Shown here: piece by piece, positions 6,561-27,505 of the stretch | Layout of the letters: each line of letters begins with the position of its first letter | How positions within the stretch are numbered: position 1 is the first letter of the stretch | Virus record (IMG/VR): IMGVR_UViG_3300023109_000093 | Coordinates: 1-28,303 of that record | DNA length: 28,303 bases | DNA from: a virus | Direction: 5' to 3' (one strand) | Notes under the pieces: model-generated | Told to the model about the DNA's origin: nothing | The model's input: the letters and a program-made list of their open reading frames with translations, nothing else | The model's database searches: none | Made by a program: the position numbers and the translations under genes

Positions 6561-7487
6561 TTATAATTCGTTCATTAATTTAACAAACATTGCCATTATA
6601 TTTATTTCTTTATCTACTACATGAGAATCAGTATACTGGGATTCTGCAATAATTAATATACAAGAAGCAATAGATCCAGTTGCAAATTCATCTAAATTTT
6701 CATACAAATAAGTATATAGCGGTGTAAAATCTTTAACTTTGCTATCTGCTATAATTTGTCGGATACTTTTAAATGTTTCTTTTTTATCTGTTACATTCTT
6801 TAATAACTCTAGTAATTTAGTCATATAATTAGCTTGTACAACACTATTTTTGTCTAATGTTAACTTACCTTTAACTACATGGCTTTGTGCTGCATTAATT
6901 GCTCTACGTATATCAGGATATGAAGAATTAATAATAGCTGCAACATCTTTAATGTCATATTCAACTTGTTTTTCTTCTAATACCGTTACTAATCGTTGAG
7001 CTACATCTTTTTTTGAAGGAGGTGTTATGCCAAATGTTTGACATCTTGATTGTATTGGATCTATAATTTTTTCAACATAGTTACATGTTAATATAAATCT
7101 AGTAGTCTTGCTATATGTTTCCATTAAGTTTCTTAACGCAGCTTGTGCATTAGGAGTTAAATAGTCAGCTTCATCTAGTATAACAATTTTCCATCTTTTA
7201 AATCCTACTGTAGATGCATATCTTTTTATTTTATCTCTTACTGCGTCTACTGAGTTTTCGTCAGATGCATTTATATACATTAAATCTGCATCTACATTAT
7301 TTGCTATAATCTTTGCTAATGTAGTCTTACCAGTTCCTGCTCCTCCATAAAATAATAAATGCGGAACATCTCCATTTTCAATGAATATTTTAACTTTGTC
7401 AATGATATGCTCATTTCCAATATATCCATCTAATGTGTTGGGTCTAAATGCTTCTACCCAAAGTGTATTTTCTGTTACTCCAAACAT
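6561..7487 (-). CDS. 44: Clamp-loader large subunit ATPase (T4 gp44-like)
   Basis: A 308-aa AAA+ ATPase that, as a tetramer with gp62, loads the gp45 sliding clamp onto primer-template DNA. Walker A GGAGTGKT is at residues 48-55, Walker B with DEAD box ILDEADYL at 103-110, sensor 1 at FILTCN (131-136) and the SRC arginine-finger motif of clamp loaders at 147-149. RRAINAAQ near residue 212 gives the sensor-2 region. Length matches T4 gp44 (319 aa). It lies just after dUTPase and clamp genes in the same operon, with a 3-nt gap after dut. Confidence 0.95.
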   Translation of the reverse strand: MFGVTENTLWVEAFRPNTLDGYIGNEHIIDKVKIFIENGDVPHLLFYGGAGTGKTTLAKIIANNVDADLMYINASDENSVDAVRDKIKRYASTVGFKRWKIVILDEADYLTPNAQAALRNLMETYSKTTRFILTCNYVEKIIDPIQSRCQTFGITPPSKKDVAQRLVTVLEEKQVEYDIKDVAAIINSSYPDIRRAINAAQSHVVKGKLTLDKNSVVQANYMTKLLELLKNVTDKKETFKSIRQIIADSKVKDFTPLYTYLYENLDEFATGSIASCILIIAESQYTDSHVVDKEINIMAMFVKLMNEL

Positions 7488-7921: not shown

Positions 7922-8629
7922 TTAATTTTGTAATTGAACTAACCAATAATTTGAATCAAAATCAGGACCTGTAAAATCTATTCTAGCTAATCCTTTAGAT
8001 GAAAAATGCATTGTACCTTTATCTCCTTTATTTGCAGTTAATACTTCTTTTAGTTTATCTGCAGAAAAACAAATTGGTTCCATTGCTTCTGTACCACCAT
8101 CTATTTCAAATGTAACATTGTCTGAATTAATAGTTGTATAATTAATAATAAACTTTATTTTACCGTTTTGTACTTGTACTGCAAAATTCTTTGCGTCTGG
8201 TAATGCATTTTTTGCTTTTATAAATTTATTAACAAATAATTCATCAATATCAATTGTAACATTATATTCTGGTTCTGCGTTAATTGCAGGAACTGCTGGT
8301 ATAACAGAAGTATCAGCTAACATGAAAGTCATTGTGGTACTTCCTTCTTTGATCTTCATAGCATAATTCTTACCTGCAGACTCTTGTACATTGATATCAA
8401 TATTTTCACCTACTGCAGATAACATTTTTGTTAATCCACCTGTATGATTAATACCTAATTCGCCAGACATAAATGGATCTGTTTTCCATTTTATTTTTCC
8501 GACTACTGTTTGATCAACATCTATTAATTCACAATTAACAGACTGACCATTTGCTTTAACAGTTACAGCTTCGCAATTTCCTGCTAGATAATATCTGTTA
8601 ATAAACGATTGTAATTTACTTTTTTCCAT
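7922..8629 (-). CDS. 45: Sliding clamp (T4 gp45-like)
   Basis: A 235-aa protein matching the T4 gp45 processivity clamp in length (228 aa in T4) and layout: two repeats of a beta-alpha-beta clamp domain, with KLQSFINRYYLAGNCEAVTV opening the first and VTIDIDELFVNKFIKAKNAL opening the second. The C-terminal strand LARIDFTGPDFDSNYWLVQL is typical of the group. As a trimeric ring it tethers the polymerase, and in T4 it also activates late transcription. The gene follows dpdA by 12 nt and precedes dut and gp44. Its neighbour DpdA ends with a peptide like that at the polymerase C-terminus, which in T4 relatives binds this clamp. Confidence 0.93.
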   Translation of the reverse strand: MEKSKLQSFINRYYLAGNCEAVTVKANGQSVNCELIDVDQTVVGKIKWKTDPFMSGELGINHTGGLTKMLSAVGENIDINVQESAGKNYAMKIKEGSTTMTFMLADTSVIPAVPAINAEPEYNVTIDIDELFVNKFIKAKNALPDAKNFAVQVQNGKIKFIINYTTINSDNVTFEIDGGTEAMEPICFSADKLKEVLTANKGDKGTMHFSSKGLARIDFTGPDFDSNYWLVQLQN

Positions 8630-8641
8630 TTGTTTTTATTT

Positions 8642-9892
8642 TTAAAATTTAAAGAATTTATTGAATTGATTTGCGTCAGTAGTTGATATACTATCACCAC
8701 CAAACTTTTTGTATGTTTTTTTATAAGTCGCATATACTCTCATTGCATTGTCTGGATCAGCAAACATATCGTGTAATGATAATATAACATCGTATAATGG
8801 TTTTGGAATTGCTGTTTCTAACAATTCAACATGATTATTTACTAGTTTGCTTACATCTTTTGCAATGTCGACATATAAATGAGTATTATGTATAACCATT
8901 CTAGGCATACCTTCTTGGCTATATCTATCTAACCCAGTTGCTGTCTGGCCTCCTAAATAATCATATGTAAAATCATTACAAGCAGGGCAGCCTAAACTAC
9001 ATGGCACGTGTTTAGTAGTGTCAATGGCTACTGTTTTATTAGATCTATTAGCATGAGATTTTCTTCTATATTCATTATTTTTTGGAAAGTATAATTCTGT
9101 AAATGTTTGAGTTTTATAATTCCCAGAATGTAAATATGTTCCAAATACTGGATATTGTCCTGGTGAACTAGAATCTGTTGAGAATAATACTCTGTTATCA
9201 GTTAATTTGTTAATTAACTTTTGTAATGTTGCTAATATAAAAAAGTCTGATATTTTTGATATTCCTAGTAAATGTATATACTTTACATGATTCTTTTCAA
9301 ATTCTCGTTCCTTTAACATTAAAGCAATAACATACATGAAATCTACTAATTTCTTAGGGCCTCCGATACACCAACCATTAAATGCAAAATCCTTAAACTT
9401 ATGATACCACTCTTCATATTCTTCTGTATATGTTCCTTGTATAACATTTAAGAAATCAGTTTTTCCAGTTTGTTTAGATTCAAAATATTTAAAATTATCA
9501 AAACTAATATCCATGGATTCGGCAAATCTATTTTCATATTTTGCTCTTGGTGGAATATCTAAATTTGCTGCTACATCTGAATTATGTTCTAACCATTCAA
9601 ATATTCTTTCACGAATAGTACCGTCCCACTTTAAAGCTCCTGTTGCTATTTGGAATCCGCCTGAATCTCCGAATACTAATACCTCATCATCTAAACCTAA
9701 CTGATCACGAAAATCCATCTTTTTGAAATGATGTCCAGCAGTGATTAAGAAATATGGATGTCTCCATTCTGCAGGATACTCTTTTGAAAAGAATCTTGTT
9801 GTAGTTCCATCCTCAAATTTTGTATTCTTTTTGAATGCAGACACCATACTACCAGCTGATAACGATGGATAATATATAAAATTTTTATCCAT
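8642..9892 (-). CDS. dpdA: DpdA-type DNA guanine transglycosylase (TGT family)
   Basis: A 416-aa TGT-fold enzyme. Family signatures in order: FGDSGGFQ at residues 74-81 (Asp76 is the TGT substrate-binding Asp), NVIQGTY at 149-155, the GWCIGGP loop at 173-179, HLLGIS at 207-212 and STDSSSP with the probable nucleophile Asp240. A zinc site C-x3-C-x2-C is at 298/302/305. Tandem tRNA-specific features such as a PUA domain are absent, and the phage context with FolE, QueD and QueE points to DpdA, which replaces guanine in DNA with a 7-deazaguanine. The last residues, NQFNKFFKF, nearly repeat the polymerase C-terminus. The start overlaps the preceding 59-aa gene by 1 nt (TAATG). Subfamily (DpdA1-4) not determined. 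Confidence 0.85.
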   Translation of the reverse strand: MDKNFIYYPSLSAGSMVSAFKKNTKFEDGTTTRFFSKEYPAEWRHPYFLITAGHHFKKMDFRDQLGLDDEVLVFGDSGGFQIATGALKWDGTIRERIFEWLEHNSDVAANLDIPPRAKYENRFAESMDISFDNFKYFESKQTGKTDFLNVIQGTYTEEYEEWYHKFKDFAFNGWCIGGPKKLVDFMYVIALMLKEREFEKNHVKYIHLLGISKISDFFILATLQKLINKLTDNRVLFSTDSSSPGQYPVFGTYLHSGNYKTQTFTELYFPKNNEYRRKSHANRSNKTVAIDTTKHVPCSLGCPACNDFTYDYLGGQTATGLDRYSQEGMPRMVIHNTHLYVDIAKDVSKLVNNHVELLETAIPKPLYDVILSLHDMFADPDNAMRVYATYKKTYKKFGGDSISTTDANQFNKFFKF

Positions 9893-10071
9893 TAATCAAT
9901 TACTTCCCATGATGAATCTCCGAGAGTTTCAATTTTCGAAAATATAAATGTTACTATTTCTGCAGATTGTTTGTCTAAACATCCTTTATCACTTAGCTGT
10001 TCTGCTAAAGCTTTAAAGGGAGTTTCAATAGTACTTCTAATTTCTTCTAAACCTTGTTTATCTATTTTCAT
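9892..10071 (-). CDS. 59-aa protein translationally coupled to dpdA
   Basis: A 59-codon reading frame fills the space between the glycosyltransferase and dpdA. It begins MKIDKQGLEEIRSTIETPFK and ends GDSSWEVID, with a helical, mildly acidic composition and one cysteine. It overlaps the glycosyltransferase end by 14 nt and its stop shares a base with the dpdA start (TAATG), a strong sign of real coupling. GAGGAAA lies before the start. No family recognised. A DpdA partner or leader gene is possible from position alone. Confidence 0.65.
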   Translation of the reverse strand: MKIDKQGLEEIRSTIETPFKALAEQLSDKGCLDKQSAEIVTFIFSKIETLGDSSWEVID

Positions 10072-11245
10072 GTTTTTCCTCTTTTTTATTTAATAAAATT
10101 TTACAATATTCGGCTTCATGCCAAACATTAATTTCTTGATTAATACCATTTGCTACAATGTATCCTTCCATTTGTCTACCTAGATCAGATATATCTACTA
10201 TTTCATTGTGTCTATTAGGAAACAGCATTACATCACTAAATGTATCTAATGCAGATTGTACATTAAATGGTTTATACATTCTTTTACTGTCAATAAATTC
10301 TGGAAATGATCTAAAATTAGGATATACAATATCTGCTCCAAAAGCAGTAGCTTCAATTACAGTCCATGATACATAATCTTGTAAAGCTGAATTAAACTGT
10401 ATACTGCAAGTAGATAACTCTGTATAATATTCTTCTTTTGTTAATCCTTCTAATAATTTAAATCTAGGCTCTTTATTTGCTAATGATCTTAATTTGTCAA
10501 TAACTCCAGGCAACATTGATCTAAACTCTTTGCCTGAGGTAGTTATGTGCCATTCCCAATCTGGATATTCTTGTAGAAATTCTGTTGCTACTTCCATCAT
10601 GAAAAATGGATTTTTCTCTTTGTCTAATCTGCTAGAGTATACAACAAATGGTTTTCTTTCTGCACCGGAGTTATAACTAGGCAATTTGTCTAATGTAGCT
10701 TGTTTATGAATTGGTAATGAAACAACATGTATTGGAGATTCAAATCCAGCTACTCGTAGTTGTTCTTTATGAATACTAGATCCTACAAATATACCTGTCA
10801 TTCTTTTGTCTAAACCTAATTCAAAACCTCGCATCCATGTTCTCATAGGATATGTAAAATCATATTCATCTACACTTTGAGCATGTAACATTGCATATAT
10901 TTCCAATTTAATACCATATAAATCAGCTGCATACAAAATAGATCCGATACCTGGATGCCAATAGTCTTGTAAAAATATAACATCTCCATCTCTAACCTCA
11001 TCTCGATTCATCATATCTAAAAAGTTGCTACATTGACTCATAGCAAACTTACCTCTACCTACTGCATCTAATACAGCTCCAATTTTAATTTGTTGATCTG
11101 GATCAAATTCTCCTTCTACATCAATATATTCAATTTTACCTGCATCAACATATGGCTGGAATGTTGCCGGCATCCATTCTTTAGATAACTGATATGTATA
11201 TCTAGCCTTTAAAGGCTCTAAACCAAAATAAAATACTTTTTTCAT
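10058..11245 (-). CDS. GT-B glycosyltransferase (GT4-like) in the dpdA operon
   Basis: A 395-aa GT-B enzyme. The second domain is recognisable from VVYSSRLDKEKNPFFMMEVA (about residues 202-221), the standard GT4 strand and helix, and the donor-site region YVSWTVIEATAFGADIVYPN gives a shortened E-containing motif with only one clear glutamate. The N-terminal half has GDVIFLQDYWHPG and a Tyr-Asp-rich loop, unlike the other glycosyltransferases in this window, so it is not a recent duplicate. It lies two genes upstream of dpdA and downstream of a PTPS-like gene. It could glycosylate DNA, a phage structural protein or a host glycan. Confidence 0.75.
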   Translation of the reverse strand: MKKVFYFGLEPLKARYTYQLSKEWMPATFQPYVDAGKIEYIDVEGEFDPDQQIKIGAVLDAVGRGKFAMSQCSNFLDMMNRDEVRDGDVIFLQDYWHPGIGSILYAADLYGIKLEIYAMLHAQSVDEYDFTYPMRTWMRGFELGLDKRMTGIFVGSSIHKEQLRVAGFESPIHVVSLPIHKQATLDKLPSYNSGAERKPFVVYSSRLDKEKNPFFMMEVATEFLQEYPDWEWHITTSGKEFRSMLPGVIDKLRSLANKEPRFKLLEGLTKEEYYTELSTCSIQFNSALQDYVSWTVIEATAFGADIVYPNFRSFPEFIDSKRMYKPFNVQSALDTFSDVMLFPNRHNEIVDISDLGRQMEGYIVANGINQEINVWHEAEYCKILLNKKEEKHENR

Positions 11246-11246
11246 A

Positions 11247-11594
11247 TTAATAACCTAATTCTACTATTGCTCCGTTTTCCCAATCTTCCCAAACTTCTAC
11301 TTTATACAAATTATTATTTTGTTCTAAAATCCAAGCGCCTATATCTTCACAACTCATTCTACCAAATTCTAATATATTACCACCAAAATTAGTTCTTAGT
11401 TGTTTTTTTAATTTTCTTTGCATTAAAATAAATTCTTCATCTCTATCTGTATGTGTTACTTTTGCATAGCAACGGAATCCAAACATATGCCTATGTCTGT
11501 CAGATAAAAATCCAACCTCCGGGAAAATTTCTTTAGCTTCTGGCCAACAATGAAATCCTTCTATACTAAATGATACAACTACTGAATATTTCAT
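11247..11594 (-). CDS. PTPS/QueD-like T-fold protein, divergent
   Basis: This 115-aa protein has no annotation I can recall, but it follows the PTPS/QueD T-fold pattern. FSIEGFHCW (residues 9-17, His15) matches the FxAxH strand, RHRHMFGFRCYAKV (33-46, His34 and His36) matches the HGH zinc motif with about the right spacing (E. coli QueD uses 16, 31 and 33), and MSCEDIGAWILE plus VEVWEDWENGAIV match the PTxExLAxW helix and the VxVxET strand. It lacks the loop catalytic Cys and is shorter than QueD. It overlaps the upstream gene by 4 nt. A pterin- or 7-deazapurine-binding role is inferred from fold alone. Confidence 0.5.
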   Translation of the reverse strand: MKYSVVVSFSIEGFHCWPEAKEIFPEVGFLSDRHRHMFGFRCYAKVTHTDRDEEFILMQRKLKKQLRTNFGGNILEFGRMSCEDIGAWILEQNNNLYKVEVWEDWENGAIVELGY

Positions 11595-12043
11595 ATTTCT
11601 TCGTCAAATTTATAGTTATCTGGTTGAATTTCCATCATATTACATTTAGTTACTTGATGAACTCTATACCAACCTGCATCAATTGATAATGTGTCAGTGT
11701 CTTTAAGCATTTCTAAATAAGGATCTGAAATTCTATATATAATATGACATCTATTAAATAAGTCTGGTTTAATTGTGTCTAAAGTGTCTTTAGTAGCTTC
11801 TATAGTTACAGCACAATTTGATTCATCTAATATACGTCTAATACTTTCCAAATATTTTTCGTCTTTCATAGACTTTTTCATGAATTCAATTGTAAAATAA
11901 TAATGAGGATATTCATTAAAATTTTCTACTTCTAAACCATAAGTTTTTTTAATATTATGATTTAAGTCTCTTACGAAGAAAGTCATAAGATCTGAATAAC
12001 GACCTTCTACTTCTCTACCTTTCCATTGATGCTTACCGTACAT
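11591..12043 (-). CDS. Unknown 150-aa protein heading the dpdA-replisome operon
   Basis: A 150-aa soluble protein with no family I recognise. It begins MYGKHQWKGREVEGRYSDLM and contains a helical centre (KKSMKDEKYLESIRRILDE), a strand-turn TVxTIEAT-like segment and a C-terminal EIQPDNYKF. The composition is ordinary, with two or three unpaired cysteines and no metal pattern. Its ATG lies 11 nt after the -10 box of the promoter at 12055-12083, so it should be translated from an almost leaderless message, and it leads the operon for the PTPS-like protein, glycosyltransferase, DpdA and clamp. Position suggests an early or middle gene linked to replication. Confidence 0.6.
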   Translation of the reverse strand: MYGKHQWKGREVEGRYSDLMTFFVRDLNHNIKKTYGLEVENFNEYPHYYFTIEFMKKSMKDEKYLESIRRILDESNCAVTIEATKDTLDTIKPDLFNRCHIIYRISDPYLEMLKDTDTLSIDAGWYRVHQVTKCNMMEIQPDNYKFDEEI

Positions 12044-12054
12044 ATTTTTTCTTT

Positions 12055-12083
12055 ATTATAATTAATTTTATTGAATTATCCAA
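12055..12083 (-). promoter_or_regulatory. Candidate promoter TTGGAT-17-TATAAT for the dpdA-clamp-clamp-loader operon
   Basis: Minus-strand TTGGAT (12078-12083) and TATAAT (12055-12060), spaced by 17 nt, match the window's promoter consensus exactly. The -35 box overlaps the last codons of the polymerase, those for its terminal Phe-Gly, so one DNA stretch serves coding and promotion. ATG follows 11 nt after the -10 box. Confidence 0.7.
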
Positions 12084-14595
12084 ATGAAAAGAACTTATTC
12101 ATATTATTATTTTCAGGAAGTTTATCCCAATTCATTGATGCGTAAAAGTCATCTAACTTTCCACGTATCTCTCTGTCAAATATTTTATTTCTATCAATAA
12201 ATTTTTCAACAAATTCTGTTATTTGGGTTGGATCTTCATAACCTCTAAGTGCAATGGTATCAAACCCCATTTGATTTGTTTTAAGATACGCCCATTTAAT
12301 CTTATCTCCATTTTGTATATCTGCAAAGTTTTTTGCATTTTTATTTATACCTAAATGTTTAAGCATATCATTGTAATTTATTGAAGATTTAACATGTACT
12401 GGGGTACCTAATGGATATCCAGATAATGTTTTTCTTCCTTTAGTATACTTTGTGATATTTTTAACACCTGTATTCTTCATGACATCCAATATTGGAGAAT
12501 CTTGTATTTTGTCTTTGAAATCCATTATTAAGTTAGTTGTGGCATTCTTTGACTTTTCTTTGAGTATATACCATAATGTTTCTTTCATTATAGTTTTAAA
12601 TTCAGTAGGGAAAGATGATCTGACTACGTCTAATCCTTTTATATCCATTTTATCCGTAGGTTTACCTTCTTTAAATATTACCCATTGAGCATATCTCTTT
12701 TTTGCTATCCACAGACCAGACTTAGCAACATATTCTTGTTTAATTTGCCATCTATGATCAAATGTATTATGAAAATGAACTGCATATTGATCATACATTT
12801 TATTTACATGCGATTGTATTTCAGATGCTATTTCATTTGTTTTTTCAATCATAAACTTTTCATCAGATTCATCAAATCCAGGATATCTTTTTTCTATTAA
12901 AGGTAAACTAGATACAAATGTTGAATCTGTATCTGTATAGAATGAAAATTCTGCTTTATTGCCATTAGCATTAATAAAATAATCTTTACCAACTTCTTTC
13001 TTATAGTACCCATTAATAACTTTTGCAGAAAATTTAATAACACTTTGGCCAGTTGCTGTGATAGCTCCTGCGTTATCTAAATCATGAAATCTAAATGTCT
13101 TTAATCCTAATACTCCATAAAATGAATTTAACAATACTTTTTGTGTTAATTGCATTGCATCATAAAATTTATACTTATCACTTCCTACTTCATGATTATC
13201 TCGTTCATTTTTAAATTTAACACGTTCATCAAACCATTTTTCTAATATCTTTGGTAAGAATCCTTTACTTCTAGTATCATATACTACTCCATTACTTGCA
13301 ACAGTAAATTTATTATCAATTAGCCATTGTTTAATATCTGGAATAGTCTGGCCGGTACATACTACACTAACAGGATCTTTACTTAGCAATGATTCTTGTT
13401 TCCAATTTGGAATAACACCTATTTTAGTTTCTGGAGATATATTAAGGCTCATTATGATGGATGGATATAGAGATGTTAAATCTAAATCGTATATCCATTT
13501 ATATAGGCCTGGTATAGGAGGCATAACATATGCACCGGCTAATTTATTCTGCTCTTCATCTTCAACAAATCTAAATTGTTTATTTGGAGCTACTAATCCG
13601 TTTCTTTTTAAATCTACAATAGCTGCACCATCAAGATATTTAGATGCGTAATAAACATCTTCATATGGAACATGACCTTTATGGCATATAGTTCTTGCTA
13701 AGTTGATTAATTGTAATTTTTCATCCAACTCATATACAAGATCAACATCAGTCATATTATATTCTATGAACTTGTTAATGTCTGAAACAAATAAATCATC
13801 TAAGTCACCATCATATTCAATTTTACCTTTACCTAACTCTGTTTTACCTACTGTATCTAATCTATAATTAGGAAGTTCTGTATATGTGAAGTTTTTATAT
13901 AATTTAATATAATCTAAACTAGAAACTCCAAATATTTTATATCTTTCACGATGTTTATTCCATTCTACAATTCCAGCTGGAGATAATTTATTGGCAGACT
14001 TTGGACCTAATACTTTTTTAATTCTATTAATAAGATATGGAATATCATACCCATCAGTATTCCAGCCAGTTATAACAGTAGGTTGTATTTCTGAAAAATA
14101 GTTAATAAATTTAATTAGCAAATTTGCTTCATTATCAAATACCTCAACAGTATAGTTATCACCGTATATAATGTCATCAGATAATCTGTTTGCTTTATCC
14201 AATACTAATACTCTCCTATCTTTGCCAACTTTGTCATAATATGCTATTGATGTTATTTCGGTTCTAACATCTTCTGGAGTAGAATATCCATCTGCATCTT
14301 TTGCTGTTTCAATATCAAAAAAGAAGTCGGAATGACCAGTGGATACTAAATCAGACTCATAATATAAGTCTATTAATGTTCTAACCTCTTCATTTAAATC
14401 AGATTCATATGCATCTGAATTATCTCTATGATTGCCTGGAGTCTTTGATAATTTAGTGCCATTTAGTGATACATATTCTCCATTTGTATCTGGAATATAT
14501 CCATATGGAGTAAACTTAAAAGTTTTATGACCTAATTCGTCATCCCATACATGCATTGTGCCAGTTTTCTTATGATATGCTATATTTTGATACAT
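12076..14595 (-). CDS. 43: Family B DNA polymerase (T4 gp43-like)
   Basis: The replicative polymerase with 3'-5' proofreading, 839 aa (T4 gp43 is 898). Exonuclease motifs: FFFDIETAKD with Asp94 and Glu96, TGWNTDGYDIPYL at about 176-188, and YNMTDVDLVYEL near 279. Polymerase motifs: DLTSLYPSI at 372-380 (A), KVLLNSFYGVLG at 486-497 (B) and FYTDTDSTF at 552-560 (C), followed by KKRYAQWVIF. All catalytic acids are present. The C-terminus NNNMNKFFSFG is where T4-group polymerases carry their clamp-binding peptide. The gene begins immediately after the small membrane-protein gene, with no gap, and ends inside a promoter for the next operon. Confidence 0.97.
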   Translation of the reverse strand: MYQNIAYHKKTGTMHVWDDELGHKTFKFTPYGYIPDTNGEYVSLNGTKLSKTPGNHRDNSDAYESDLNEEVRTLIDLYYESDLVSTGHSDFFFDIETAKDADGYSTPEDVRTEITSIAYYDKVGKDRRVLVLDKANRLSDDIIYGDNYTVEVFDNEANLLIKFINYFSEIQPTVITGWNTDGYDIPYLINRIKKVLGPKSANKLSPAGIVEWNKHRERYKIFGVSSLDYIKLYKNFTYTELPNYRLDTVGKTELGKGKIEYDGDLDDLFVSDINKFIEYNMTDVDLVYELDEKLQLINLARTICHKGHVPYEDVYYASKYLDGAAIVDLKRNGLVAPNKQFRFVEDEEQNKLAGAYVMPPIPGLYKWIYDLDLTSLYPSIIMSLNISPETKIGVIPNWKQESLLSKDPVSVVCTGQTIPDIKQWLIDNKFTVASNGVVYDTRSKGFLPKILEKWFDERVKFKNERDNHEVGSDKYKFYDAMQLTQKVLLNSFYGVLGLKTFRFHDLDNAGAITATGQSVIKFSAKVINGYYKKEVGKDYFINANGNKAEFSFYTDTDSTFVSSLPLIEKRYPGFDESDEKFMIEKTNEIASEIQSHVNKMYDQYAVHFHNTFDHRWQIKQEYVAKSGLWIAKKRYAQWVIFKEGKPTDKMDIKGLDVVRSSFPTEFKTIMKETLWYILKEKSKNATTNLIMDFKDKIQDSPILDVMKNTGVKNITKYTKGRKTLSGYPLGTPVHVKSSINYNDMLKHLGINKNAKNFADIQNGDKIKWAYLKTNQMGFDTIALRGYEDPTQITEFVEKFIDRNKIFDREIRGKLDDFYASMNWDKLPENNNMNKFFSFG

Positions 14596-14825: not shown

Positions 14826-15860
14826 TTATAATATAAGTAATTCTTTTTGTTTTTCCAATACCGGTAAAATAGCTAACTCTTTTGCCTTAGCTTCAACTAC
14901 TATGTCTAGATTATCAACATTATAAGTATTAGGAGTATTCACAATATAATCTGCATGGGCAGGCTCTTTTATCTTTGAGAATTCTTTCTTGAACTTTGCA
15001 AAGGTAGGCCAGCTATCAATTTCATCCCACGAAATACCATGCTTGCTACATACCTCATTCAAGAAAGATTTCTTTTCGTTTCGTCTAGACTCAGAATAAT
15101 GAGTACATTGAGTTACACCATACTTATCCCAAGTAGATCTTGCCATAAAGAATGCCTCACGTTCAGATAAATCGCCTGTACAAAAGGTATGATGCCAATA
15201 GTCAAATGTAATGGGAATACCAATTTCTTGGTGTATAAGCTCGTATAGATGCCTTACACTATACATAGATGCCTTATCATCATTCTCTAGTACTAATCTA
15301 GATCTACAAGACTCAGATAATCGTCTCCAGGTCTTGATCCACCGCTTAGCAGTAGCTTCACGATCACCATATGCGCCAGCAACATGTATATTAATCTTAT
15401 TCTCAAAGGACGGCTCATACCCCATAATATCAAACATTTCAGAGTGTCGTTCTAGACCAATAATACTTTTTTCTACAACATCTTGCCTAGGAGAACCTAA
15501 TACATGGAACGGTCCAGGATGGGTAGTCAATCGATGGCCATGTTGTCTAGCAAATTCACCAGCTGCATGTAAGTGATAAGCAATTTCTTCGAAGCCAGGT
15601 AGATCATGTAATTCATAAGAATCATGCCATGGGAACAATTCAGAACCTATACGAAACAAAGTAATACCATGCTCTTCGTTCCATTGAAGATAAGTAAGTA
15701 AATCTTTTGCGTTGTCTAATGCCTTATCGGAAATAAGCTGTAAATTATCGGGATACCAAGAAGCTTTTCTAGCCGTACGAGAAGTAGTAACTCTACCACC
15801 TAATTTTTTGGGTCTAGATGTCAATGTTTGGTTGACACAAGCGTAACCATATCTAATCAT
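14826..15860 (-). CDS. uvdE: UV-damage endonuclease (UvdE/UvsE family)
   Basis: A 344-aa TIM-barrel endonuclease that nicks 5' to UV photoproducts, starting repair without a glycosylase. Recognisable motifs: IRYGYACVNQTL at the start, FRIGSELFPWHDSYEL (about 70-85), the metal-binding strand LTTHPGPFHVLGSP (~110-123), NIHVAGAYGDR (~156-166), VLENDDK (~193-199) and FDYWHHTFC with the late histidines. Length matches bacterial UvdE. Base composition stands out: three 60-base lines in this gene are 42-50% G+C by hand count, versus 23-28% in the other lines I sampled, suggesting recent acquisition from a less AT-rich source. It has its own promoter at 15872-15900 and is followed by the membrane-protein gene. 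Confidence 0.93.
   Translation of the reverse strand: MIRYGYACVNQTLTSRPKKLGGRVTTSRTARKASWYPDNLQLISDKALDNAKDLLTYLQWNEEHGITLFRIGSELFPWHDSYELHDLPGFEEIAYHLHAAGEFARQHGHRLTTHPGPFHVLGSPRQDVVEKSIIGLERHSEMFDIMGYEPSFENKINIHVAGAYGDREATAKRWIKTWRRLSESCRSRLVLENDDKASMYSVRHLYELIHQEIGIPITFDYWHHTFCTGDLSEREAFFMARSTWDKYGVTQCTHYSESRRNEKKSFLNEVCSKHGISWDEIDSWPTFAKFKKEFSKIKEPAHADYIVNTPNTYNVDNLDIVVEAKAKELAILPVLEKQKELLIL
14830..14858 (-). promoter_or_regulatory. Candidate promoter TTGGAA-17-TATATT upstream of the membrane protein and polymerase
   Basis: Minus-strand TTGGAA (14853-14858) and TATATT (14830-14835) with a 17-nt spacer, one mismatch in each box relative to the window consensus. It lies inside the end of uvdE. 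A second TATAAT at 14825-14830 overlaps at a less usual spacing. The ATG is 6 nt from the -10 box, predicting a leaderless message. Confidence 0.5.
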
Positions 15861-17511: not shown

Positions 17512-17643
17512 TTATTTTATGTTTTTTAATATACTTCGTAATTTATCTATCATTTCCTGAACTTCATCAGGATCCATTGTTATTGCACAACAAATATTAA
17601 CATTTTCTTCTATTTCATTTAGTAGTAATAATGCTTCATCCAT
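17512..17643 (-). CDS. 43-aa acidic ORF coupled to queE
   Basis: A 43-codon frame fills the gap between queE and groES. It reads from MDEALLLLNEIEENVNICC and ends IDKLRSILKNIK, giving an acidic N-terminal helix, a CysCys pair at residues 18-19 and a basic C-terminal helix. Its start codon shares one base with the queE stop (TAATG), and it ends just before groES with a 10-nt gap, so it is likely translated. No family recognised; a helical adaptor protein is conceivable. Confidence 0.6.
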   Translation of the reverse strand: MDEALLLLNEIEENVNICCAITMDPDEVQEMIDKLRSILKNIK

Positions 17644-18506
17644 TACACTCCTCTTTCTGTATCAAATGCTATAATGTGGTCTCTACCTGTCATATTATAT
17701 CCTTTTTCAGCACATAATTCAAATACTAAAGGATACATTTTTACTAATGTTTCTCTAGTATCACCAGCTGGCATTATAAATGTTTTATCTTTTGGAATAT
17801 CCATTTCAACTCTAAATGCTTCTATTTCTTCTAGATTTTCATCTGTGCCATCCCATACTGGTTTAAAATGGTAATCTTTATGGTATGCAATTGTTTTACT
17901 AATAGCTTCCTTATTTAATCTAAGTCTATTGTGAACTTTTATCATTCGCTCGTCGGCGATAGCCCCGTTAGGTGTAACAGCACCAAGTACAGGCACACTA
18001 TTACTAAATTTAGGACTAAGACTAATAAGATCCAAAGGATAGTCTGTTTCAAGAAAGTGAGAGCCTTCTGTTTCAATTGTAACCAAAATGTTTCTTTCAT
18101 TTGCAAAATGTGTTATTTCATTTACTAACGCAGGGTGCATTGTAGGTGATCCACCTGTTAACATCATTTCTTTTACATGAGGATTATCATCATATATTTT
18201 AATAATGTCATTAAATGTAAATGTGCCTTTTTCTGGGTGTATACTTGTATACCAAGAATCACACCAACCACCTTCCCCAAAATAACATCTATGAGTACAG
18301 CCTGTTGTTCTAACTGCAATAGTTGGTCTACCAAATCTAGAACCTTCTGATTGTACACATCTATATACTTCTAAAACTGGTAATACTTTATTATAATCTT
18401 CTATTCTTTTTAATCTACTTTGTATCTTTCTTTTAGAAGATCCAATTTCTCGTTGATATACTGTTTTGCCTCCATTAGGAGATTCATATATTAGGTTATT
18501 CTCCAT
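17643..18506 (-). CDS. queE: QueE, 7-carboxy-7-deazaguanine synthase
   Basis: Radical-SAM enzyme converting 6-carboxytetrahydropterin (QueD product) to 7-carboxy-7-deazaguanine. The N-terminus NLIYESPNGGKTVYQRE is followed by RFGRPTIAVRTTGCTHRCYF, with the cluster cysteines at 70, 74 and 82, spaced C-x3-C-x7-C, wider than the canonical C-x3-C-x2-C but seen as a variable loop in QueE proteins. Then MLTGGSPTMHP and TIETEGS (SAM-binding strands) and DLISLSPKFSNS. I chose the start at 18506 (MENNLIYESP), overlapping queD by 11 nt; the longer start at 18533 would overlap by 38. The patch 17941-18000 is 53% G+C, unlike the flanking sequence. The stop is shared (TAATG) with the 43-aa ORF. Confidence 0.9.
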   Translation of the reverse strand: MENNLIYESPNGGKTVYQREIGSSKRKIQSRLKRIEDYNKVLPVLEVYRCVQSEGSRFGRPTIAVRTTGCTHRCYFGEGGWCDSWYTSIHPEKGTFTFNDIIKIYDDNPHVKEMMLTGGSPTMHPALVNEITHFANERNILVTIETEGSHFLETDYPLDLISLSPKFSNSVPVLGAVTPNGAIADERMIKVHNRLRLNKEAISKTIAYHKDYHFKPVWDGTDENLEEIEAFRVEMDIPKDKTFIMPAGDTRETLVKMYPLVFELCAEKGYNMTGRDHIIAFDTERGV

Positions 18507-18963
18507 ATATAGCTGTATTTTTTTTATTTTCAAAAAATTCTACTCGAGCTATTTTTACTCTATCTGTAGTTTCTTCTTTTACAAAATCATTTAATTTATT
18601 AAATATATATTCTGCAAACTTCTCTGCTCCGGTTGGACCTTTCATCACTCTTAACTGAATAAGACCTTCATCTTGCATTTTTAAAAATGTTTCTAAGTAT
18701 GGATCATCTTCTGCTATTATTGTAGTATGATCAAACATATAGTCCATCCATTCTTTTGCAGACATTCCATCAATTTTTGTTTTAGACCGTTTCATTCCTC
18801 CAAAATCCCATACCCAATTTCTATGATCTAGTTCTCCTTCGAAGGTTACTTTAAATTCGATCGCATACCCATGTAAAAATCTGCAGTGTGTTTCAATAGC
18901 TCCAAATTGACGAAACACTGTACTAAATCCGTCAAATATTTTTGTTGATTTAAATTTATTCAT
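18496..18963 (-). CDS. queD: QueD-family 6-carboxytetrahydropterin synthase, atypical metal site
   Basis: A 155-aa PTPS/QueD-fold enzyme, which would turn dihydroneopterin triphosphate (FolE product) into 6-carboxytetrahydropterin. Motifs: THCRFLHGYAIEFKVTF (residues 25-41), the catalytic-type Cys27, NWVWDFG (~49-55), DHTTIIAEDDP, GPTGAEKFAEYIF and the C-terminal VEFFEN strand. The zinc triad is unusual: the usual HGH is HGY (His31, Tyr33), and the first His is not in the AAH context, although His26 precedes the Cys. This HGY variant I have seen in some phage and alphaproteobacterial QueD-like proteins. Between folE (1-nt overlap) and queE. Confidence 0.85.
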   Translation of the reverse strand: MNKFKSTKIFDGFSTVFRQFGAIETHCRFLHGYAIEFKVTFEGELDHRNWVWDFGGMKRSKTKIDGMSAKEWMDYMFDHTTIIAEDDPYLETFLKMQDEGLIQLRVMKGPTGAEKFAEYIFNKLNDFVKEETTDRVKIARVEFFENKKNTAIYGE

Positions 18964-19622
18964 TAATATCCTTTTACAAATTCATAAAATTCAGCTCTTG
19001 TCGAAGTATCATTCTTAAATGCTCCGGTAAGCTTACTTGTTTTCATTGATGCTCCTCCATGTTTAACTCCTCTACATGATACACAATTATGAGTAGCATC
19101 TATCATTACTGCTACGCCATTATTATCATTAATAATAGTATTAATTGAATTATGAATAGCAACTGTTAATTGTTCTTGTATAGCACCTCTTCTTCCAAAA
19201 TGTTCTACTAATCTATTCAATTTACTTAATCCTATTACTTTACTATCTTTTCCTGGAATATAAGCTACATGAACTTTACCCATAATAGTTTGATGATGAT
19301 GCGAACACATTGACGTCAATGGAATACCGCCTTCGAATACCATACCATCATACCCATCAGATGGAAATGCTGTAATATCTGGTGATCCTTCATATCTACC
19401 AGCCCATAAATCATTAACATATGCTTTTGCTACTCGGTGTGGGGTATTATCTGAATTTGGATCATTTCGCCAATCACATTTAAGTGCATCTAAAAAGTGA
19501 CCAAAATGTCTTGCTGCTAATTGTATCATATCATTTTTTTGGTAATCGTCTAATGGGCCGCCTGGTGCAACCCCGTTAGCAAAACCTTCTTTTACTAGTT
19601 CAATCGTTTTCTTTGTTGTCAT
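18963..19622 (-). CDS. folE: GTP cyclohydrolase I (FolE)
   Basis: Makes dihydroneopterin triphosphate from GTP, the first step toward 7-deazaguanine (and also folate). The zinc-binding motif SMCSHHHQTIMGKVHVAY has Cys106 and His109; Cys180 in THNCVSCRGVKH is the third ligand. GLSKLNRLVEHFGRR (131-145) and QLTVAIHNSI match the family; the C-terminal half is well conserved at 219 aa, the normal size. The presence with queD, queE and dpdA, rather than folate genes, argues for the DNA modification route. It overlaps the upstream 107-aa gene by 23 nt and shares its stop with the queD start. Confidence 0.95.
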   Translation of the reverse strand: MTTKKTIELVKEGFANGVAPGGPLDDYQKNDMIQLAARHFGHFLDALKCDWRNDPNSDNTPHRVAKAYVNDLWAGRYEGSPDITAFPSDGYDGMVFEGGIPLTSMCSHHHQTIMGKVHVAYIPGKDSKVIGLSKLNRLVEHFGRRGAIQEQLTVAIHNSINTIINDNNGVAVMIDATHNCVSCRGVKHGGASMKTSKLTGAFKNDTSTRAEFYEFVKGY

Positions 19623-27187: not shown

Positions 27188-27505
27188 TTAAAATTCAAAA
27201 TCGTCATCAAATGAGTTTTTAGGTTCTTGATATGGTTTATCATAATTACCTTTTTGGAGATCTCCCATTAATGAGTTTGGAATATTTAGCTTATCATCTG
27301 CTAAAAAATTTCCTGCTAATTTTCCATCAACATATATTTCCAAGTTTCCGTTCTGGCCAATTTTCCATTCGCCTGAATCTCCTTCTTTTTTATTGAAATG
27401 TCCTTTAAGCCAATTTTGTTGATTAGCCGCAGCTTCTTTTAATAAATTAGATTCTGTAAGATTTTTTGTACCAAATCTTGTCATATTTTGTTGTAATTTA
27501 CTCAT
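27188..27505 (-). CDS. Small protein with GTKNLTE N-terminal tag
   Basis: A 105-aa protein. Residues 1-20, SKLQQNMTRFGTKNLTESNL, share the RxGTKNLxE tag with the next gene's protein and end in Leu-Thr-Glu-Ser, a good prohead-protease-type site. The middle (GEWKIGQNGNLEIYVDGKLAGNFLADDKLN) looks like a small beta domain; the C-terminus is acidic and aromatic (NSFDDDFEF). The start codon overlaps the preceding stop by 1 nt and it is followed 11 nt later by the 209-aa gene, so the three genes form a unit. Function unknown. Confidence 0.6.
   Translation of the reverse strand: MSKLQQNMTRFGTKNLTESNLLKEAAANQQNWLKGHFNKKEGDSGEWKIGQNGNLEIYVDGKLAGNFLADDKLNIPNSLMGDLQKGNYDKPYQEPKNSFDDDFEF

Follow-up and report, generated by a model that had tools for sequence, protein, structure and literature searches.

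The stretch analysed here, referred to below as the window, comprises positions 1 to 28,303 of the IMG/VR virus record IMGVR_UViG_3300023109_000093, and this work concerns the C-terminal peptide of the putative DNA guanine transglycosylase DpdA that it encodes. The dpdA gene (8642..9892, minus strand, 416 amino acids), for a protein resembling tRNA-guanine transglycosylases (TGT), is separated by 12 nt (8630..8641, minus strand) from the gene of a gp45/PCNA-like sliding clamp (7922..8629, minus strand, 235 amino acids; phrog_223, DNA polymerase processivity factor). An earlier note on this DNA, which had placed dpdA directly upstream of gp45, was thus correct on this point. The clamp was modelled with a predicted local distance difference test score (pLDDT) above 90, and its top 50 PDB matches were all PCNAs. 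Upstream lies the gene of a gp43-like family B DNA polymerase, PolB (12076..14595, minus strand, 839 amino acids; PF00136, PF03104, phrog_262).

The assignment of DpdA is based on family, fold and gene context. PF01702 (TGT) was matched just below its cut-off (25.0 bits versus 26.3, E 1.2e-5), and a search with the structure model (overall pLDDT 61) using Foldseek returned TGTs as best matches (2ash, E 2.9e-5) and the "DNA preQ0 insertase DpdA", PDB 7UI4, as the second-best one (E 6.2e-5), with template modelling scores of only 0.3-0.4; the model therefore points to a TGT fold. This bacterial DpdA resembles the window protein in fold, but no profile-level sequence similarity to it was detected, the sole match of the DpdA profile among PDB sequences being a non-relevant one at E 0.28. 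Residues S77-G78, D240, C298, C302, C305 and H335 are invariant in 22 relatives, and D76 is kept in at least 90% of them; by analogy, they are candidates for the catalytic aspartates and the zinc site. Genes of the 7-deazaguanine pathway are indeed present in the window, all on the minus strand: FolE (18963..19622; NF006824, E 2e-47), QueD-like (18496..18963; TIGR03367, E 2e-7) and QueE-like (17643..18533; TIGR03365, E 1e-14). The phage DpdA and DpdA2 enzymes, TGT-related DNA 7-deazaguanine transglycosylases, were likewise described in folE/queD/queE clusters (Hutinet et al., 2019, PMC6884629), in a study where clamp and C-terminus are unmentioned.

A polymerase-like peptide at the end of DpdA

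DpdA terminates in ...TTDANQFNKFFKF and PolB in ...PENNNMNKFFSFG, so that the last residues of the two proteins, NQFNKFFKF (8645..8671, minus strand) and NNMNKFFSFG (12079..12108, minus strand), are alike, as the earlier note had observed. That note had taken N-x-x-NKFF-x-F as the shared element, of which only a part withstood comparison. Three IMG/VR scans provided 203 complete DpdA tails, 69-100% identical to the window DpdA, and every one of them retained F-x-x-[F/Y]-F, while the residues around it varied (NQ, IK, HK, EN or KQ; NK, NE, AE, GE, SE or NQ), giving forms such as FNEFFKF, FAEFFKF, FGEFFKF, FNKYFTF and FNQFFGQKTN. Even the terminal phenylalanine is sometimes gone (FKT, FKS, FFGQKTN). 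Among 135 distinct dpdA genes, position 410 is always phenylalanine, written TTC in 76 and TTT in 59 of them, position 413 is phenylalanine or tyrosine and position 414 phenylalanine, with 4-10 different residues at each flanking position; F410 and F414 have accumulated synonymous changes but no residue change. The constrained part of the shared tail is hence hydrophobic-x-x-[F/Y]-F, and the shared asparagine and lysine, which vary among relatives, are in part a coincidence; the full NxxNKFF was ruled out as a specific signature for this reason.

The polymerase tail is conserved as well. Where the polymerase frame of a relative runs to a stop, it carries NN-x-[MVA]-x-[KR]FF-[STN]-[FY] in 104 cases out of 105, the exception being a truncated frame; the usual form reads (M/V/A)xKFFSFG(K). 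A more distant polymerase, that of Microcystis phage Mel-JY01 (44% identical), ends in NKNLSKFFNFK, near the PCNA-interacting protein (PIP) consensus Qxxhxxaa given for clients of gp45 and PCNA (PMC3012046). The core h-x-x-a-a of this consensus is present and conserved in both window proteins, as F-x-x-F-F in DpdA and M/V/A-x-x-F-F in PolB. In a near-identical relative of 173 kb, hydrophobic-xx-FF occurs within the last 14 residues of only five open reading frames (ORFs): those of PolB, DpdA and an endonuclease, and two more that are small and dubious. At the DNA level, the 12-nt match behind the shared tails (AATAARTTCTTT) has 5 occurrences with at most one mismatch in this AT-rich window, versus 3.1 expected; the likeness of the two tails in DNA is therefore no better than chance, whereas the protein motif itself is not a product of chance.

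Tails that follow the polymerase and the clamp

Remote DpdAs (about 25-30% identical), including those of jumbo phages, were found in annotated phages and by profile scans, most of their genes being located in polB - PCNA-like clamp - dpdA clusters. The Vibrio 2.275.O DpdA used as a query against the viral contig collection gave zero matches, and Pfam and PADLOC returned nothing useful on the distant DpdAs and clamps. The tails of these DpdAs repeat the motif found in the polymerase of the same phage. In Vibrio 2.275.O, the polymerase has NNTDLFDW and DpdA NNNDLFGW; the corresponding pairs are MQQFFEF and MNEFFEF in L239, LQAFFEF and LNEFFEF in L246, NTFGSLFSFD and NTFGSLFSFEE in L301, TFNKFFKF and NFKKFFSP in L303, TFNDLFDF and TFNSLFD in L370, and LFSSFFA and MFEDFFN in L380. 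An acidic extension often trails the motif, which elsewhere forms the very end of the protein. The jumbo Sinorhizobium phage Phosso (L220:3842-5491), with a DpdA ending in KIVEGLF and a polymerase in TFNDLFTF, provides a weaker, partial match.

This correspondence was quantified on 300 loci with both C-termini, grouped into 47 lineages at 70% DpdA identity. The motif was present within the last 50 residues of 40 of the 47 DpdAs, compared with 124 of 694 other co-encoded proteins, and DpdA was the top match to the polymerase tail among co-encoded proteins in 35 lineages, where 3.4 were expected. At this clustering, aromatic (FF) polymerase tails were paired with FF tails on DpdA in 7 lineages and with aliphatic (LF) ones in 3, while LF polymerase tails were paired with FF in none and with LF in 32 (Fisher's test, 4e-6); with clusters at 60% identity, the co-variation gave p = 0.012. 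A permutation stratified by DpdA superclusters (84 lineages at 80%) yielded 79 concordant lineages versus 63-67 expected, with a p of 5e-5 that is the floor of this test, relatedness being only partly controlled. The check on co-variation that the earlier note had called for, like that on orthologues, was thus positive.

A different form is seen in the biochemically characterised DpdAs of the 9g/CAjan family, whose genes adjoin those of a DnaN-like clamp and a polymerase. A clamp gene was found at 78 of these loci, within 1.3 kb downstream of dpdA in 77, and the 9g clamp matches TIGR00663 (dnan) below its cut-off. The tails include LQDLFDE (9g), RVMELF (CAjan), QELF, QPELF, TQGLF and EQRLF. 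A strict Q-x(1,2)-[LI]-F no more than four residues from the terminus (as in DQIGLF, DQMGLF, DQLGLF, QMSLF or QPELF) was found in 73 of 86 9g-type DpdA loci versus 1 of 1018 other proteins there, and a looser [LIF]F close to the end in 84 of the 86; after clustering at 60% identity, 33 of 34 clusters end in [LIF][FW], 27 of them in the strict form. Such ends (QLGLF, QIGLF, QMSLF) match the bacterial beta-clamp consensus QL[S/D]LF (PMC3716654), and QLGLF is also the terminus of E. coli Pol II, whereas the window DpdA has the PIP-like form instead. Since 9g-type tails correspond to the bacterial beta-clamp motif, the class of the tail follows the class of the clamp. The polymerases of these phages do not end in the beta-clamp motif that their DpdAs carry. 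This clamp-matched switch is stronger evidence than anything inside the window. No earlier report of a beta-clamp motif on DpdA was found in the literature searched.

Proposed clamp tethering of DpdA and its alternatives

We observed the peptide and how well it is conserved, its likeness to the polymerase tail and the co-variation of the two, the clamp-matched switch among 9g-type DpdAs, and the genes around dpdA. Taken together, these observations make it very probable that DpdA is a clamp client by way of a flexible, polymerase-like C-terminal peptide, which would hold it on phage DNA during guanine exchange; the tethering proposed by the earlier note is thereby supported. The peptide, of the same kind as that of the replicative polymerase, would dock on the sliding clamp that the phage itself encodes, here gp45/PCNA-like, by entering its hydrophobic pocket; remaining on duplex that has just been copied, this clamp would hold DpdA there, so that guanine would be swapped for 7-deazaguanine on the DNA encircled by the clamp, that is, on newly copied phage DNA. 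DpdA would then probably ride the replication clamp and mark new DNA as it is made. Comparison strongly supports the docking step, while we infer clamp binding itself, use of the same pocket and the coupling of modification to replication.

There are precedents for both halves of this proposal. The C-terminal PIP peptide of RB69 gp43 has been solved bound to gp45 (PDB 1b8h; PMC3012046), and the T4/RB69 situation resembles the present one in the extreme C-terminal hydrophobic and aromatic peptide and in the phage's own gp45/PCNA-like clamp; it differs in that the second carrier here is a base-exchange enzyme rather than a polymerase, with binding predicted only. As regards DNA modification, T4 alpha-glucosyltransferase (alpha-GT) co-purifies with gp45 (PMC13216743), an interaction attributed to Sommer et al. 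(2004) as cited and confirmed there. Like the proposed DpdA, it is a phage DNA-modifying enzyme on the sliding clamp, but with another chemistry, enzyme family and substrate (hydroxymethylcytosine). Clamp-bound phage DNA modification is therefore already known from this case, and what would be new is its extension to a whole enzyme family together with the clamp-matched motif switch. We know of no clamp-type-matched series of motifs across phages for T4 alpha-GT. In agreement with the earlier note, we found no description linking DpdA or 7-deazaguanine to a clamp in the literature searched, in which subscription journals and bioRxiv were incompletely covered.

Several observations weigh against this reading. 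The PIP glutamine, three residues before h, is missing (alanine in DpdA, asparagine in PolB), which is why we call the tail PIP-like and not a canonical PIP box. Just before the motif, a GGxSIST stretch hardly varies either, and part of the tail's role may therefore lie in the fold of DpdA itself. When the DpdA tail was modelled with the clamp as an in-frame readthrough fusion in AlphaFold (DpdA tail-GKGKQ-gp45, TAA read as G), the clamp was confident but the tail, at pLDDT 45-51, was not; the structure-prediction check suggested by the earlier note therefore bore out the clamp without a confidently docked peptide, and the docking claim was dropped, as the model speaks neither for nor against it. 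Under the pattern used, five of the 47 lineages are without the motif, and an FF-type polymerase is combined with an aliphatic DpdA call in three, although one of these (L189) is a calling artefact, its tail reading FNKYF. Finally, the DpdA2 of Vibrio phage nt-1 (Hutinet et al., 2019) lacks the motif although this T4-like phage has gp45, its gp43 ending in LESFFG and its gp55 in LQKFYN; modified guanine amounts to only about 0.1% in nt-1 DNA (PMC6884629).

The near-invariant GGxSIST stretch could also suggest a structural role for the tail within DpdA, for instance as a C-terminal helix packed against the barrel or as part of a dimer interface, its resemblance to the polymerase tail being due to convergence on a short hydrophobic motif. 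The DpdA model, in which a short helix (407-413) follows the final body helix (380-396), would fit this, but the intervening residues 399-407 have a pLDDT below 50 and the last block one of about 50; a low-confidence linker and a short helix are what a tethered peptide would show, though this is not proof. In jumbo phages, moreover, the spacing between the last body helix and the motif varies, and anything from 0 to about 45 further residues come after the motif; the motif type also tracks polymerase and clamp class. Four DpdAs with a ParB-like neighbour instead of a clamp (Faze9, Nadezda, Sonali and phi38:2) have no such tail, even though phi38:2 still encodes a beta clamp about 3 kb away. 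We thus regard a purely structural role as unlikely. An exchange of 3' ends between adjacent genes by recombination, leaving tails that match by descent without function, is suggested by the proximity of dpdA and the polymerase gene; it is very improbable given the chance-level DNA match of the tails, the free variation between the aromatic positions, and the canonical motif on 9g-type DpdAs but not at the ends of their polymerases. A less remote alternative, which we hold to be possible but the lesser prospect, is that the tail binds the clamp for other ends, such as competition with or regulation of the polymerase, repair patches, roles like that in late transcription, or keeping DpdA off host DNA. 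Clamps have many clients, and in T4 the alpha-GT share of modification is set mostly by expression, its contact with gp45 not being the main determinant (PMC13216743). However, the known function of DpdA is DNA modification, and dpdA is needed for all detectable modification in CAjan (PMC6884629).

Clamp tethering of DpdA remains our preferred explanation, and the best reading of the tails as a whole is that phage DpdAs are in general clamp clients. A wider proposition, about which we are evenly divided, is that tethering is a general targeting mechanism for the DpdAs of clamp-encoding phages, in which the peptide would be switched between PIP-like and beta-clamp forms according to the phage's own clamp, would couple guanine replacement to replication and would restrict it to phage DNA; in nt-1, with its tailless DpdA2, ArcS, a later 7-deazaguanine enzyme, carries a gp43-like tail instead (LANFF versus LESFFG). 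In 9g and CAjan, only roughly one quarter to one third of the guanines are replaced; for this partial extent, as for the timing of replacement during infection and the way in which phage DpdA gets to phage DNA, we know of no explanation. A clamp-binding tail would offer a specific mechanism for this targeting, timing and extent. The idea lends itself to genetics with CAjan, since inactivating its dpdA gives a clear phenotype in liquid chromatography-mass spectrometry and restriction when E. coli K-12 is the host, and the motif provides a sequence handle for other phage clamp clients.

Other candidate clients and neighbouring genes

The ArcS-like protein of the nt-1 dG+ pathway (L471:36416-37096, ORF388), encoded in the same pathway cluster as DpdA2, ends in NSLANFF; only near-identical relatives of it were found in the phage collection. 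An Endonuclease I-like protein (phrog_945; L083:10109-10582, and 29109-29585 in G001, the near-identical 173-kb relative) ends in KPNVVKFFV, and its relatives in L565 and L566 end in KTFFA and KRFFS; judging by these ends, it could be a third client of the clamp in this group of phages. A 105-residue ORF of the window (27188-27505), at the position of T4 gp33 upstream of a gp59-sized ORF and gp32, ends in NSFDDDFEF. As a third client, this ORF was unsupported, its only relative (in G001, 81% identical) ending in NTFDDDFELER.

QueC (PF06508) was not found in the 173-kb relative or in four other related contigs, the five that were searched; preQ0 may be completed by host QueC, or a carboxy form may be the inserted base. 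Between dpdA and gp45, the two frames are shared across 8630-8644 (TAA AAA TAA AAA CAA ATG), which is probably due to chance, since both the length of the gap (9-23 nt among relatives, stop codon included) and the frame differ. The gp44-like clamp loader ATPase is encoded at 6561..7487 (minus strand; AAA, DNA_pol3_delta2). Immediately upstream of the polymerase gene lies that of a UvsE-type UV damage endonuclease (14826-15860), which scores above the cut-off of TIGR00629. ORFs resembling glycosyltransferases occur at 47-2823 and 10058-11245, two being weak NCBIfam matches and the third, between the polymerase gene and dpdA, a call by eye without a family match; they could serve the modification of DNA bases or of the capsule.

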